Origin: Lutimonas halocynthiae
Lineage (GTDB): Bacteria; Bacteroidota; Bacteroidia; Flavobacteriales; Flavobacteriaceae
NCBI RefSeq assembly: GCF_030409835.1
Contig: NZ_JAUFQO010000016.1
Location: forward strand, 186,001 to 250,000
Reading direction: 5' to 3'
DNA length: 64,000 nucleotides
Of the stretch, positions 2,882 to 15,333 are shown in pieces. How positions within the stretch are numbered: position 1 is the stretch's first letter; each line of letters opens with the position of its first letter. The notes under the pieces are model-generated. The model was not told the DNA's origin and ran no database searches. It saw nothing but the letters and a program-made list of their open reading frames with translations. Position numbers and translations under genes: made by a program.

Positions 2882-3589
2882 ATGAAAATGGATTTCATTG
2901 GGTGTTTTAATGATTTCATTACTGTTTTAAATAAACATAAAGTGCGTTATGTTATTTTAAGAGGTTATGAAAATTTACCAGAAAACTTCTCAAATGATCT
3001 AGATTTTGGAATTCACCCTTTAGATAAGGATGCTTTTTTTTCTGCACTTAAAGAATATAAAATTGAACATAATTTAGAAATTAAGATAAACCTTTCTCGC
3101 TATGAAGTATTAAAACTAAGGTTCAGTTTTAAAAGTCAGGAGATTGATTTCGATTTTTGGTTTGATATCAATTATTGTGGCCTGGAATATATAAGCATAT
3201 CAGAAGTTTTAAGAAACGCAGTCCCCTATAAAAACTTTATGATTCCTAGTGCAGCAGATGAACTTACTATTTCTTTTCTGAAAGAATTGTTGCACATGAA
3301 AAGACTGCGTGAAGATAAGGTAGTTTGGCTAACAAGTAAGGTTGAAGAATCTGATTTGGGTTTTTTTGCAACTTTTTTTTCAAAAATAATAAGAAAACAA
3401 TTTATTAATGTAATTAAGATTCGCAAATTTGATCTCGAAAAATTATCAAGTAAAGCGAAAGTAGAATTGTTGAAGGTTCATTTAAAAAAAAGAAGTTTTA
3501 AAGCCACGTTTCAGAAAATCATTTCTTTTGTTTATCTAAGATTTCGAAATAATAAAAACCCTTTAGTAATAAAACTAAGAGATATATGA
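2882..3589 (+). CDS. Unrecognised protein with nucleotidyltransferase-like acidic motifs
   Basis: A 235-residue soluble protein I cannot assign to a named family. The N-terminal part reads VRYVILRGYENLPEN followed by NDLDFGI, and about 60 residues later EIDFDFWFDI. A DxD pair after a beta-strand plus a third acidic strand is the usual metal-binding layout of the nucleotidyltransferase (pol-beta-like) fold, so the protein may move a nucleotide or phosphate group; this is inference. The C-terminal half is Lys-rich and basic. It overlaps the next gene by four bases (ATGA), so it belongs to the glycan operon. Base composition is very AT-rich like its neighbours. Confidence 0.7.
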   Translation: MKMDFIGCFNDFITVLNKHKVRYVILRGYENLPENFSNDLDFGIHPLDKDAFFSALKEYKIEHNLEIKINLSRYEVLKLRFSFKSQEIDFDFWFDINYCGLEYISISEVLRNAVPYKNFMIPSAADELTISFLKELLHMKRLREDKVVWLTSKVEESDLGFFATFFSKIIRKQFINVIKIRKFDLEKLSSKAKVELLKVHLKKRSFKATFQKIISFVYLRFRNNKNPLVIKLRDI

Positions 3590-11894: not shown

Positions 11895-12100
11895 CTTTGA
11901 AGAATAAAACATTAATTAAATCAAATCTTTTACGTCAGTGTAGTTTGAAAAGCCTGTTAATAATTTTTGAATCCCTGTAAAAAAATTAAGGCTTTTCAAA
12001 CCTTTTTTATGCGTTTGATAGAAAAGCTTAAAAAACACACCTCGTAAAAGTCTCCTTTTTTTTGAATCGTTTTTTTTGGAGAAGCAAAAAAAATGATTAA
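11895..12100 (+). repeat. Structured repeat R1 (three-way junction plus hairpin)
   Basis: First of three related elements of about 200 bp. Stem P1 is CTTTTACG (11927-11934) with CGTAAAAG (12043-12050). Inside it are P2, GTTTGAAAAGCC (11943-11954) with GGCTTTTCAAAC (11990-12001), and P3, TTTTTTATGC (12003-12012) with GCTTAAAAAA (12026-12035, one T-T mismatch). P4 follows, TCTCC (12051-12055) with GGAGA (12078-12082), enclosing a T-rich loop. It lies between the dehydratase terminator and the DUF4105 gene. It could be a non-coding RNA or a DNA-level repeat; no transposase or promoter is attached. Confidence 0.75.
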
Positions 12101-12208
12101 AATTAAATTAAAGTTTGATTTAAGCGATGTATGTTTAAATTTTTATGCTAAAAAGTTAATGAAATTAAACTTGTAAACTATATTTACGATCTAAATGAAA
12201 TATCAATT

Positions 12209-13393
12209 TTGAAAAGAATACTTTTTTTATTAATTATAATTACAGCAAGTAACTGCTTCGCTCAACAGATACAATTATCTACAACGGCCGAGGTTAGTGT
12301 TATCACTTGCGGACCAGGAACTAATGAATTATATGCAAGTTTTGGGCATAGTGCCTTCAGAATACTAGATTTAGAGAATAAAATTGACAGGGTTTATAAT
12401 TACGGGACTTTTAATTTTAATACGCCAAACTTCTACACAAAGTTTGCTCAGGGTAAATTACTATACCAATTAAGTGCTTATAATTTTGGGGACTTTTTAA
12501 AGGGATATCATCGAGAAAACAGATGGGTGGTTGGTCAGGTTCTTGATTTAGATCCGGTACAAGTTCAAAAAGTATATGATTATTTAGAAGAAAATGCCAA
12601 ACCTGAAAACCGGTCTTATCAATATGACTTTTTTTATGATAATTGCTCCACTAAATTGTATGATGTTTTAGAAGATGCTATCGGGGAAGATTTGGTTTTT
12701 AAAAGTGATTTCGATCAAGCTGATTATAGCCATCGAGATCTTATTGAATTATACATGGGGCATCAACCCTGGGCCGATTTCGGTATAGACCTGGCTTTAG
12801 GAGCTGATATTGACAGGAAAGCTTCTTCTAAGGAGTACATGTTCTTACCTGATTATGTTTTAGAAGCCTTTACAAGCATTGAAATCAAGAAAAATGGAGT
12901 GTTAGCGCCAATCGTCAAACGAACCGAAGAAATTCTTCTAAGCTATCCACAAGAATCTAAACAAGGCGGCTTTACCCCAATCATTCTTTTCTCAATTGTT
13001 GCCCTATTGATCATTTGGATTACTTATAAAGATTATAAAAATAATACTAGGACTAAAATCCTTGACACTGTCTTGTTTTCTATTACCGGTGTTGTAGGTA
13101 TCATTCTTTTATTATTATGGTTTGCCACAGATCATTCAGCCACCGCTAACAACTTCAATATATTATGGGCCTTCGCTCCAAATCTCATTTTTGCTTTTGT
13201 ACAACATAAAAATCCTAAGCTTAGTAAGTATTATATGGTTACCTTATTGATATTACTTGACATTATGGTTCTCTTATGGATCTTTAACGTACAGGTTTTT
13301 CATTTCTCTTTGATCCCATTTATTATTGCTCTTTATGTGCGGTATGTCTATTTGTGGTCGTGGAACTATCGTTCCTCAAAGCTCTCTAAATAA
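12209..13393 (+). CDS. DUF4105 (Lnb N-terminal periplasmic domain) membrane protein
   Basis: Exported, membrane-anchored protein of 394 residues. A signal peptide (RILFLLIIITASNCFAQ) precedes the DUF4105 domain with its conserved CGPGTNELYASFGHSAFRI, YNYGTFNF and FFYDNCSTKLYDVL segments; the His, Asn and Cys residues in these are the invariant ones that suggest a papain-like or NlpC-like hydrolase core. The C-terminal third has about five membrane helices. The start is a TTG at 12209, chosen because it places the signal peptide at the N-terminus. It lies alone between repeats R1 and R2. The substrate is unknown. Confidence 0.85.
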   Translation: MKRILFLLIIITASNCFAQQIQLSTTAEVSVITCGPGTNELYASFGHSAFRILDLENKIDRVYNYGTFNFNTPNFYTKFAQGKLLYQLSAYNFGDFLKGYHRENRWVVGQVLDLDPVQVQKVYDYLEENAKPENRSYQYDFFYDNCSTKLYDVLEDAIGEDLVFKSDFDQADYSHRDLIELYMGHQPWADFGIDLALGADIDRKASSKEYMFLPDYVLEAFTSIEIKKNGVLAPIVKRTEEILLSYPQESKQGGFTPIILFSIVALLIIWITYKDYKNNTRTKILDTVLFSITGVVGIILLLLWFATDHSATANNFNILWAFAPNLIFAFVQHKNPKLSKYYMVTLLILLDIMVLLWIFNVQVFHFSLIPFIIALYVRYVYLWSWNYRSSKLSK

Positions 13394-13397
13394 TATT

Positions 13398-13600
13398 CTT
13401 TGAATCTAAAACATTAATTGAATCGATTCTTTTACGGCAGTGTAGTTAGAAAAGTCTGTTAAGAATTTTTGAAGCCTTGGAGAAAATTCAAGGCTTTTCA
13501 AACGATTTTTATGCGTTCGATAGAAAAGCGTAAAAAACACCTTCGTAAAAGAAAGCTCCTTTTTTTGATTCTTTTTTTGGAGCAGCAAAAAAATGAATAA
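13398..13600 (+). repeat. Structured repeat R2
   Basis: Second copy, beginning five bases after the DUF4105 stop. P1 is CTTTTACG (13429-13436) with CGTAAAAG (13544-13551), extendable by two more pairs. P2 is GAAAAGTC (13449-13456) with GGCTTTTC (13492-13499), using a G-T wobble where R1 has a G-C pair. P3 is TTTTTATGC (13506-13514) with GCGTAAAAA (13528-13536), one wobble. P4 is GCTCC (13555-13559) with GGAGC (13579-13583), where R1 and R3 have T-A at the base pair that is G-C here. It sits between two convergent genes. Confidence 0.75.
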
Positions 13601-13611
13601 AAAATATTCTT

Positions 13612-13648
13612 ATGGACACCAATTGAGTAGGACTCAATAATTGTCCAT
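13612..13648. terminator. Interrupted long hairpin between convergent genes
   Basis: ATGGACA (13612-13618) pairs with TGTCCAT (13642-13648), and ATTGAGT (13622-13628) with ACTCAAT (13632-13638), separated by a small internal loop and a 3-base apical loop. There is no strong T-tract on either side. It may help stop transcription from the DUF4105 gene or the PorV-like gene, or be another small repeat. Confidence 0.35.
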
Positions 13649-13672
13649 CAAGACAAAAGAACAGAAAACATA

Positions 13673-13701
13673 ATAACCTGACGCCTCGCCGTCAAGGTTA
13701 T
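13673..13701 (-). terminator. Hairpin at the 3' end of the PorV-like gene
   Basis: ATAACCT-GACG (13673-13683) pairs with CGTC-A-AGGTTAT (13690-13701) around the loop CCTCGC. The stem spans the stop codon of the minus-strand PorV-like gene and is followed on that strand by a T-rich stretch. Its GC core resembles the palindromes inserted in R3, so a small palindrome may have been taken over as a terminator. Confidence 0.45.
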
Positions 13702-14771
13702 CTAAAATACCCAATATCAACCTTAACAGAAAAAACATTCGAATACAAAGTCCCACTGGCAGCACCAATATTAGCCAATGCATAATCGATCTGTATGCCT
13801 TTATATCTGAATCCGACTCCAAAGTTGGGTTCTAGGGAAGTTGATTTCGCGCCATCGAATTCAGTGAAGTATTGAAAATTATTAACACCCAGGCGTAAAT
13901 AAACCATTTTTAAATAATCAAATTGGAGGCCTACACCCGGGTCGATACTTAAGAAAGAAGTCGATAAGATATCATTGGTTTCTGAAAACCGCATATTTAG
14001 GTCAATCTCAGTCAGAATGCTAAAATCGCGGAAAGCAACAAATGTTTTCGCAACACCAAATTGTACTTTCGGTTTTGTTAATTCGAGTGATTCTGGTGCT
14101 TCTTGGTTTTCTCCTGGAATGGCATTTTGGATTTTATTAAACTCTTCTTCATCAATACTCCAGGCATTAAATGTTGTTGTGATATCTCTGACCATCAAAC
14201 CGAACTTCCATTCACTTTCCGTTTCAAATTGCAAGGCAGCATCCAGGCCAAATCCCCAGGAAGAGGCAAAATCTCCAATTTTTCGATGTACGATTTTTGA
14301 ATTAATTCCTATATCCAGTCCTTGAACTGGTAAACGTCTGGCATATGCCACGTTAAAAGCATAATCAGCTGCAGAGAATAGACTGATATTGTCATAGTTG
14401 ATGTTGCCTTGACTATCAATTAATTCAGTTGTATTTAAAATATCATCAACACCGAATCTAATAAAGGCAATGGCAAAGGTACTCTCGTCATTAATGGGTT
14501 TCGCGAAGGCTGCATAGTCATATTTTCCGATGCCCTGAAAATATTCAGCATGCATTAGGGCTCCTTGAATATCATCAACTTTAGTCAGACCAGCAGGATT
14601 CCAATAGATTGAATTAACATCACCACTAGAGGCAATAACCGCTTTACCCATGCCAAAGGCAGCAGCGTCAACACCAAGATTTAGAAATTCATTTGAGAAA
14701 CTTCTAAAAGCCTGGCCGTTGGCCAAGTGGCAGATAAATAAAATGATGAAGATTGACTTTTTCAATTTCAA
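13698..14771 (-). CDS. PorV/PorQ-like outer-membrane protein (type IX secretion-associated family)
   Basis: Outer-membrane beta-barrel protein of about 357 residues. After a signal peptide (FIILFICHLANGQ) the mature start reads AFRSFSNEFLNLGVDAAAFGMGKAVIASSGDVNSIYWNPAGLT, the hallmark of the PorV/UPF0164 family, and the rest alternates barrel strands. PorV proteins shuttle substrates of the type IX secretion system; close homologues in flavobacteria are often called PorV2. The frame extends to a TTG at 14798, but a TATATTTG promoter element lies inside that extension (14786-14793), so the TTG at 14771 (or 14765) is a better start. It lies between R2 and R3. Confidence 0.85.
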   Translation of the reverse strand: MKLKKSIFIILFICHLANGQAFRSFSNEFLNLGVDAAAFGMGKAVIASSGDVNSIYWNPAGLTKVDDIQGALMHAEYFQGIGKYDYAAFAKPINDESTFAIAFIRFGVDDILNTTELIDSQGNINYDNISLFSAADYAFNVAYARRLPVQGLDIGINSKIVHRKIGDFASSWGFGLDAALQFETESEWKFGLMVRDITTTFNAWSIDEEEFNKIQNAIPGENQEAPESLELTKPKVQFGVAKTFVAFRDFSILTEIDLNMRFSETNDILSTSFLSIDPGVGLQFDYLKMVYLRLGVNNFQYFTEFDGAKSTSLEPNFGVGFRYKGIQIDYALANIGAASGTLYSNVFSVKVDIGYFR

Positions 14772-14785
14772 AAACAAATTTGCTA

Positions 14786-14817
14786 CAAATATAGGCAAAT
14801 GAAAAGCAGGAAATCAA
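14786..14817 (-). promoter_or_regulatory. Putative Bacteroidota promoter for the PorV-like gene
   Basis: On the minus strand, TTG (14817-14815) is followed after 21 bases by TATATTTG (14793-14786), matching the -33/-7 layout TTG-N19-23-TAnnTTTG. Transcription from here would begin inside the longest open frame, which supports the shorter start. Confidence 0.5.
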
Positions 14818-15057
14818 GGATTAAATGATGCAAATCGAACGCACATTATGCAATAGAACTTCTATTATAAACGCAAAATGTAAAAATGAGATTGAACCCG
14901 GCCGGCGAGGTACGAATTGGTGATTTGTGACTTTTGAATATCCAATATCGAACAAGGAATTTCGAAACTATAAATTTCCCTCCTTTATAGAATTATTAAT
15001 TAGATCTAATCTTTTACGTCAGTGTAGGATGAAAAGGGCGTTAAAAATTTTTGAAGC

Positions 15058-15077
15058 CCTGCCTGCCGGCAGGCAGG
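15058..15077. repeat. Perfect 20-bp GC palindrome inserted in the P2 loop of R3
   Basis: CCTGCCTGCCGGCAGGCAGG is a perfect palindrome. R2 at the equivalent place reads GAAGCC directly followed by TTGGAG, so about 20 bp were gained in R3. Translated in one frame it gives LPAGRQA, a peptide I recall as a recurrent artefact in predicted proteins of Bacteroidota and other genomes. Confidence 0.8.
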
Positions 15078-15190
15078 CTTGGAGGAAATTTAACCCTTTT
15101 CAAAAGATTTTTATGCGTGAAATAGATAAGTAGCACCTATTTTCGAGTATGACTAAGCATAAAAAACACCTTCGTAAAAGTCTCCTTTTT

Positions 15191-15211
15191 CCTGCCTCGC
15201 CGGCAGGCGGG
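15191..15211. repeat. Imperfect GC palindrome inserted in the P4 loop of R3
   Basis: CCTGCCTCGCCGGCAGGCGGG interrupts the T-rich loop between TCTCC and GGAGA that is continuous in R1 and R2. Its centre GCCGGC and arms match the palindrome at 15058-15077 apart from a bulged base and one mismatch, so it belongs to the same small repeat family. Confidence 0.75.
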
Positions 15212-15333
15212 TTTGGTTCTTTTTTTTTGGAGAGGCAACTGCGAAGCACATCACGAATTCCTTAATGGAAATAAAAGAGGGATGAGTAAAAAAAATGAAC
15301 AAAAAGTGTTATTTAAAGCGCTATGCTTAAACC

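Follow-up and report, generated by a model that had tools for sequence, protein, structure and literature searches.

Three segments of a 64,000-nt window of Lutimonas halocynthiae DNA (contig NZ_JAUFQO010000016.1, positions 186,001 to 250,000), named R1, R2, and R3, are copies of one folded element, described here as type A. With a probability that we put at about 0.6, they are dispersed non-coding insertions of a mobile element, the body of which functions as a single strand in folded form, most likely as RNA, and which is copied in trans. The body comprises a three-way junction, with stem P1 around P2 and P3, followed by an H-type pseudoknot that is predicted to form a triple helix. An earlier reading of the same DNA, made without database searches (the original prediction), had described R1–R3 as three copies of a structured element with stems P1–P4. 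The copies and every pairing that it listed are present in the sequence, and the family is larger than it had noted, with at least 13 full copies, as well as fragments, in the host genome (4.0 Mb, 20 contigs). R1, R2, and R3 are the sole matches to a covariance model of type A in the window (E values of 4e-37, 2e-36, and 2e-21, with the runner-up at 0.03). Their bodies are located in the window as follows:

11923-12098, plus strand: R1, full structured body, three-way junction and pseudoknot (model match of 168.9 bits, E 3.8e-37; alignment of type-A copies)
13425-13598, plus strand: R2, full structured body (model match of 166 bits, E 1.7e-36)
15007-15300, plus strand: R3, structured body with palindrome insertions and an insertion of ~50 nt before the final pseudoknot strand
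15007-15235, plus strand: R3, part matched by the covariance model (100.2 bits, E 2.2e-21)

The junction is defined by the following strands, given for P1 in all three copies and for P2 and P3 in R1:

11927-11934 and 12043-12050, plus strand: R1, 5' and 3' strands of P1, covarying across copies (helix 1 of the alignment)
13429-13436 and 13544-13551: R2, strands of P1
15011-15018 and 15173-15180: R3, strands of P1
11944-11954 and 11990-12000, plus strand: R1, 5' and 3' strands of P2, 11 pairs (helix 2)
12002-12041, plus strand: R1, P3 hairpin (helix 4)

The letters of P1 (CTTTTACG/CGTAAAAG) are identical in R1, R2, and R3, so that the compensatory changes in the window are confined to P2, P3, and P4. 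These are as originally claimed. P2 is AAAAGCC/GGCTTTT in R1, AAAAGTC/GGCTTTT with a wobble in R2, and AAAAGGG/CCCTTTT, a double change, in R3, while P3 reads ATGC/GCTT with one mismatch in R1, ATGC/GCGT with a wobble in R2, and ATGC/GCAT in R3. The closing pair of P4 is T-A in R1 and R3 and G-C in R2. Changes in these three copies alone could have arisen by chance, whereas the pattern in a wider alignment is not due to chance. The alignment, an extension for which the original prediction had asked, includes 23 type-A copies, drawn from the host genome, one relative in its genus, and further Flavobacteriia, among them Leeuwenhoekiella, Dokdonia, Gillisia, and Tenacibaculum; palindrome insertions were removed from it by hand, and the counts do not depend on them. 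Double compensatory changes are found at 29 of its 53 pairs, including all 11 counted pairs of P2, which vary on both sides. Paired cells amount to 94.4%, compared to 82.5% in shuffled sequences, and double-change cells number 126, compared to 31.9 +/- 5.0 after shuffling and at most 37 when the partners were slid. Sequences held out of the model match it at E values from 1e-39 to 1e-12, with their stems compensated by other bases, as in Winogradskyella, where P1 is GTTGAAAT/ATTTCAAC. The earlier suggestion of selection for the structure of RNA or single-stranded DNA is thus borne out, and where the outcomes that it had named as evidence against itself, such as missing covariation or a match to a known repeat, were looked for, they did not appear.

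Stem P4, read earlier as a hairpin, is indeed present, but it is only the first stem (S1) of a pseudoknot, since a strand of the second stem (S2) follows directly. In R1, P4 (CTCC...GGAG) surrounds a loop of the form T8-GGTTCG-T8, and AAGC and then A8-TGAAC come after GGAG. The second T tract and GTTC pair with A8-TGAAC to form S2, CTCC pairs with the GGAG that lies inside the loop of S2, and the first T tract becomes loop L1 of an H-type pseudoknot. Its parts are:

12052-12055, plus strand: R1, 5' strand of S1 (CTCC, the P4 of the original prediction)
12056-12063, plus strand: R1, loop L1 (T8), predicted from the L1/S2 mirror relation to be the third strand of a triple helix
12067-12077, plus strand: R1, 5' strand of S2 (TCG and T8)
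12078-12081, plus strand: R1, 3' strand of S1 (GGAG)
12086-12096, plus strand: R1, 3' strand of S2 (A8TGA)
13555-13598, plus strand: R2, pseudoknot with S1 GCTCC/GGAGC, L1 T7, and S2 ATTCT7/A7TGAAT (final S2 strand at 13587-13598)
15182-15300, plus strand: R3, pseudoknot broken by a GGCAGG palindrome (15191-15211) and by an insertion (about 15238-15287), with the final S2 strand at 15288-15300

Both stems covary outside the window. Bases preceding L1 pair with the loop of S2 across loci in ever different letters (CTTGAT/ATCAAG, GTGTCC/GGACA, CTTGAC/GTCAAG, and others). The mean length of S1 is 4.88 bp among the 116 loci listed, compared to 3.99 +/- 0.09 bp when the loops were permuted, and 4.64 bp in Kangiella, compared to 3.25 +/- 0.16 bp.

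The third strand of a pyrimidine-motif triple is parallel to the purine strand, which requires L1 to mirror the pyrimidine strand of S2. In the same 116 loci, L1 has C as its fifth base in all 26 cases where a C-G pair occupies that position and T in all 55 where a T-A pair does, and the lengths of the L1 and S2 tracts are correlated (Spearman 0.76), with tract length and positions of C covarying over 4–10 nt. The tracts of Kangiella vary between copies (TTTTCTT, TTTTTCTT, TTTCTCTT, TTTTCTTT, and TTTCTTT); L1 is an exact mirror in 22 of 28 of them, and the direct register fits only three, all self-symmetric. A looser scoring yielded 21 perfect mirrors against 10 in the direct register, and at most 16 in 1000 permutations. 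A Watson-Crick switch between the two T tracts was considered and discarded, as the positions of C obey the mirror register and not the direct one. The mirror relation is the signature expected of a major-groove triple helix made of U.A-U and C+.G-C triples, which we accordingly put forward as a structural prediction. Common descent alone is unlikely to have created such a pattern, because the tracts have varied both within one genus and across phyla.

The tail is not limited to type A. A scan with a pattern that fixes only part of S2, conducted on one genome per species, returned at least 115 stretches. The matches listed are mostly from Bacteroidota, with others from Balneolaceae, Rhodothermaceae, Gammaproteobacteria (Kangiella and Methylophaga isolates), Zetaproteobacteria, and Desulfobacterota; those listed from Firmicutes are single metagenome bins that may represent contamination. 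A GGTTAC/GTAAC form of the tail occurs four times in contigs of a virus collection, where a non-complementary control pattern had no match. Folding is stronger in the 200 bases upstream of the tail than in the 200 bases downstream (median z of -2.06 vs. -0.61, p 7e-8, 103 loci), and a closing stem near S1 is common in these upstream domains. Individual folds from Flavobacteriia, Proteobacteria, and Desulfobacterota contain a P1 stem and a long P2, often accompanied by a short P3. Judged by sequence, the same tail is present in several phyla and is hardly described in RNA databases. Tail-bearing units also form head-to-tail tandem arrays in Leeuwenhoekiella aequorea and Neolewinella aurantiaca, with periods of 265 bp and about 750 bp.

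The domain in front of the tail, in turn, is exchangeable. In Kangiella, it is the TwoAYGGAY RNA of Rfam (RF01731), and the tail was found directly downstream in all 30 TwoAYGGAY matches inspected, from three Kangiella genomes and one other carrier; 28 of the tails were parsed automatically, and the remaining two contain a mismatch or an insert. In the host genome, a second head family (B; contigs C16, 811–845 kb, and C12, 183.6 kb) has the left flank (CTAAAATCATTAATTGGACCGA-like) and the right-hand tail of R1–R3 around a different core, CTGCACG...CGTGCAG. As families A and B have their tail and flank in common and their cores are unlike, the heads are taken to be exchanged. The flank is represented in the window by one further feature:

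13393-13424, plus strand: R2, left flank module (AATATTCTTTGAATCTAAAACATTAATTGAATCGA region), resembling the flank of other copies and of head family B

Apart from the TwoAYGGAY heads, none of those tested, of type A, type B, or other types, matches Rfam, and R1–R3 have no Rfam family at either gathering or loose thresholds, in agreement with the earlier statement that the family was not a recognized one. TwoAYGGAY (gathering score of 43 bits), which the Kangiella relatives pass, and Flavo-1 (RF01705, 42 bits) are both without a match in the window or in the tested host copies. The pseudoknot, the predicted triple helix, the second head family, and the spread across phyla all go beyond what had been noted at first.

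The type-A element is multicopy and mobile. The site of R3 is empty in all genus relatives with a readable locus, and the sets of copies are unlike between relatives. In a Balneolaceae genome, related elements that carry this tail form units of about 330 bp with terminal inverted repeats (CTGACATTACC...GGTAATGTCAG), flanked in five copies by 10-bp target duplications, three of them perfect (TCTCGAGAGG, CCCTAAATCC, and GGTTCTGATC) and two with 9 of 10 identical bases; the chance of at least 9 of 10 at a fixed offset is ~3e-5 for each, assuming unbiased bases. For the older host copies, target duplications are not demonstrable, and searches for plasmid copies that would provide near-identical empty sites returned none of use. 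The inverted repeats and duplications in Balneolaceae, together with the absence of R3 from relatives, nevertheless indicate that the elements move, and the dispersal of the copies agrees with the original description of an undescribed structured RNA or mobile repeat. In Kangiella, the copies are similar in sequence from the 5' strand of P1 to the end of the tail or slightly beyond.

That conserved unit, extending from P1 to the pseudoknot or just beyond, would also suit a relic of a transposon that moves as single-stranded DNA, of the IS200/IS605 kind or that of repetitive extragenic palindromes (REPs) with their REP-associated tyrosine transposases (RAYTs), or possibly attC-like, in which a tyrosine or HUH enzyme reads the fold during replication and RNA plays no part. 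The copies are intergenic, multicopy repeats of structure only, free of open reading frames (ORFs), and pyrimidine triplexes form in DNA too. We consider this explanation unlikely. The Y1 transposase (PF01797) is absent from the host genome and from three Kangiella genomes with 7–16 copies each, on which ground the RAYT/REP system was rejected; copies in both orientations occur within the same 65 kb; and 10-bp target duplications with inverted ends are not known as a trait of IS200/IS605. Integron attC sites, which the spacing of the copies (~1.5 kb, with one gene between) might recall, were dismissed since the genes are ordinary chromosomal ones and no attC core consensus was seen by reading. 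Likewise, a resident reverse transcriptase is rejected as a general mobiliser: the host genome contains one RVT_1 gene, and the three Kangiella genomes and the Balneolaceae genome have none. With each enzyme missing from some carriers, neither Y1 nor reverse transcriptase explains all of them. In the Balneolaceae genome, no autonomous element with these ends was found; all paired ends are about 225–340 bp apart and enclose no gene.

The strand described here also shows an excess of G-U over A-C mismatches (25 vs. 10 columns, p 0.017), as would be expected if RNA rather than single-stranded DNA were the working form; RNA is favoured on this sequence evidence, not proven. The orientation of neighbouring genes reveals only an avoidance of divergent gaps (7, compared to 20 convergent ones). 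Together with an upstream gene that is co-oriented in 60 of 92 cases, this could point to a cis-acting element of mRNA 3' ends, a terminator or stability clamp spread by recombination, all the more as triple helices protect RNA 3' ends in the established case of MALAT1/ENE elements. Such a role is nonetheless improbable. Gaps between co-directional genes contain 32 sense and 22 antisense copies, a difference that is not significant, R3 lies antisense, upstream of a PorV-like gene, and any insertion that spares promoters would avoid divergent gaps. Slightly less probable still is a set of stand-alone, paralogous small RNAs that serve the cell, perhaps as protein sponges similar to CsrA-binding RNAs, and were multiplied by ordinary duplication. 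TwoAYGGAY does belong to Rfam clan CL00106 with PrrB/RsmZ, and a conserved block of ~40 nt before P1 in the host genome could hold a promoter, but the Kangiella copies have no sequence in common upstream of P1 and hence no common promoter, and the unlike copy sets of relatives and the target duplications in Balneolaceae also speak against it.

In the preferred reading of R1–R3 as insertions of a mobile element acting through its RNA, the strand would be transcribed, often by read-through, as the unit has no visible gene, and copied in trans by an enzyme of the host. The triple-helix tail may clamp and protect the RNA 3' end or serve as a handle for copying, and the exchangeable head may offer a protein-binding surface, such as the CsrA-type AYGGAY loops in Kangiella. 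Several points weigh against this reading. No mobiliser was found in the genomes examined, and the 11 host copies tested had no significant terminal inverted repeat except for a short match at R3. The 10-bp duplications come from the Balneolaceae relative, which has the pseudoknot and a P1/P2 fold and is without a clear P3 or similarity to the head sequence (model E of 0.26). The C+.G-C triples require protonation, the G-U excess is modest and weakly expected for DNA too, and the covariation, pseudoknot, and mirror counts ignore the relatedness of the sequences. We can speculate further, if with more doubt than confidence, that all these units form a single undescribed superfamily of structured RNAs that spread themselves, comparable in bacteria to short interspersed nuclear elements. 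Its exchangeable three-way-junction heads would all carry a universal 3' triple-helix pseudoknot tail, by which the RNA is copied or its 3' end protected, in Bacteroidota, Balneolaceae/Rhodothermaceae, Proteobacteria, and Desulfobacterota.

Short structured repeats abound in bacterial genomes, mostly with no known reason for being structured. In this case, the structure is directly legible, as two stems and a base triple covary across phyla, in a module placed on varied heads and in mobile units. This enables concrete tests of the triple helix as a guard of RNA ends or a copying handle, as well as of the moving enzyme. It also adds a tail to TwoAYGGAY, makes its mobility likely, and accounts for a recurrent intergenic class, tract-GGTTCG-tract ... 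tract-TGAAC, along with its GGTTAC form, in many genomes.

Several additional features accompany the copies. R3 shares the fold, as originally proposed, but it is not a plain copy, being interrupted by insertions at three places:

15059-15077: R3, small GGCAGG palindrome in the tip of P2
15191-15211: R3, small GGCAGG palindrome inside P4
about 15238-15287: R3, insertion of ~50 nt (CTGCGAAGCACATCACGAATTCC...GGGATGAGT) before the last strand

The same ~50-nt insertion occupies an identical position in the tail of several copies, including those at C16:850 kb and C16:909 kb. Hairpin tips of the element also contain inserted small GC palindromes (CCTGCCGGCAGG-like in several host copies, CCCGANGCNTCGGG in Balneolaceae), which gives the impression that hairpin loops are their targets. 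Many type-A copies are found on host contig C16 between 799 and 864 kb, a region with dense A and B copies among paralogous ORFs of DUF6090-type or universal-stress-type look by sequence, which includes a putative restriction-modification island with a reverse-transcriptase gene. A further pseudoknot-like repeat, CCTTGAT-T5-GGTTCTTTTG-CATCAAGG-CAAAAGAAC, turns up often alongside copies and next to Flavo-1 (downstream flank of locus L025, L095, and the 2973-3081 region of L145). In the window, the Lnb/DUF4105-type gene (12209-13393) is inverted compared to the readable loci of genus relatives, and the segment lies exactly between R1 and R2; in the relatives, this gene follows the PorV-like gene (13698-14798 of the window, minus strand) on the same strand.

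No published description of the element was found in the open literature, to which the search extended (subscription papers being outside its scope), and one may exist elsewhere. Flavo-1 is a structured motif that is dispersed in Flavobacteriaceae and occurs in both orientations with respect to transcripts (PMC9723704). It resembles the present element in these respects but differs in sequence and structure, and its identity with R1–R3, a comparison that had been suggested earlier, is rejected, as no model match exists and two separate Flavo-1 units are present at locus L145. TwoAYGGAY (Weinberg et al. 2010, PMC2864571) has matches, in Kangiella and one other carrier, with a pseudoknot of the same kind directly downstream. 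However, R1–R3 and the other heads do not match it, the Rfam matches end before the pseudoknot and exclude it, and no mobility is described in the passages of that source that were consulted. Like REPs and bacterial interspersed mosaic elements with RAYTs, the element is multicopy, intergenic, and consists of structure only, but it is larger, with a three-way junction and a triplex pseudoknot, and Y1 is absent in several carriers. Miniature inverted-repeat transposable elements (MITEs), such as BrickBuilt of Porphyromonas (PMC4596501), are likewise short non-coding insertions, and the Balneolaceae relative has their inverted ends and duplicated targets; in our case, the ends of the element vary by lineage whereas the folded interior is conserved, and the host copies are without clear inverted ends. 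The tail contains the two interleaved, covarying stems of triple-helix H-type pseudoknots, known from telomerase RNA and from the SAM-II, SAM-V, and preQ1-II riboswitches, as well as their pyrimidine-rich first loop, which mirrors the pyrimidine strand of stem 2 and is predicted to be parallel to its purine strand. Unlike those RNAs, it has no ligand gene context, is found on exchangeable heads, and has spread as a mobile unit. Thus, the tail resembles telomerase-type triple-helix pseudoknots and the spread resembles that of a MITE or REP, whereas features that define the MITE and REP families are either absent from the element described here or not demonstrable in it.

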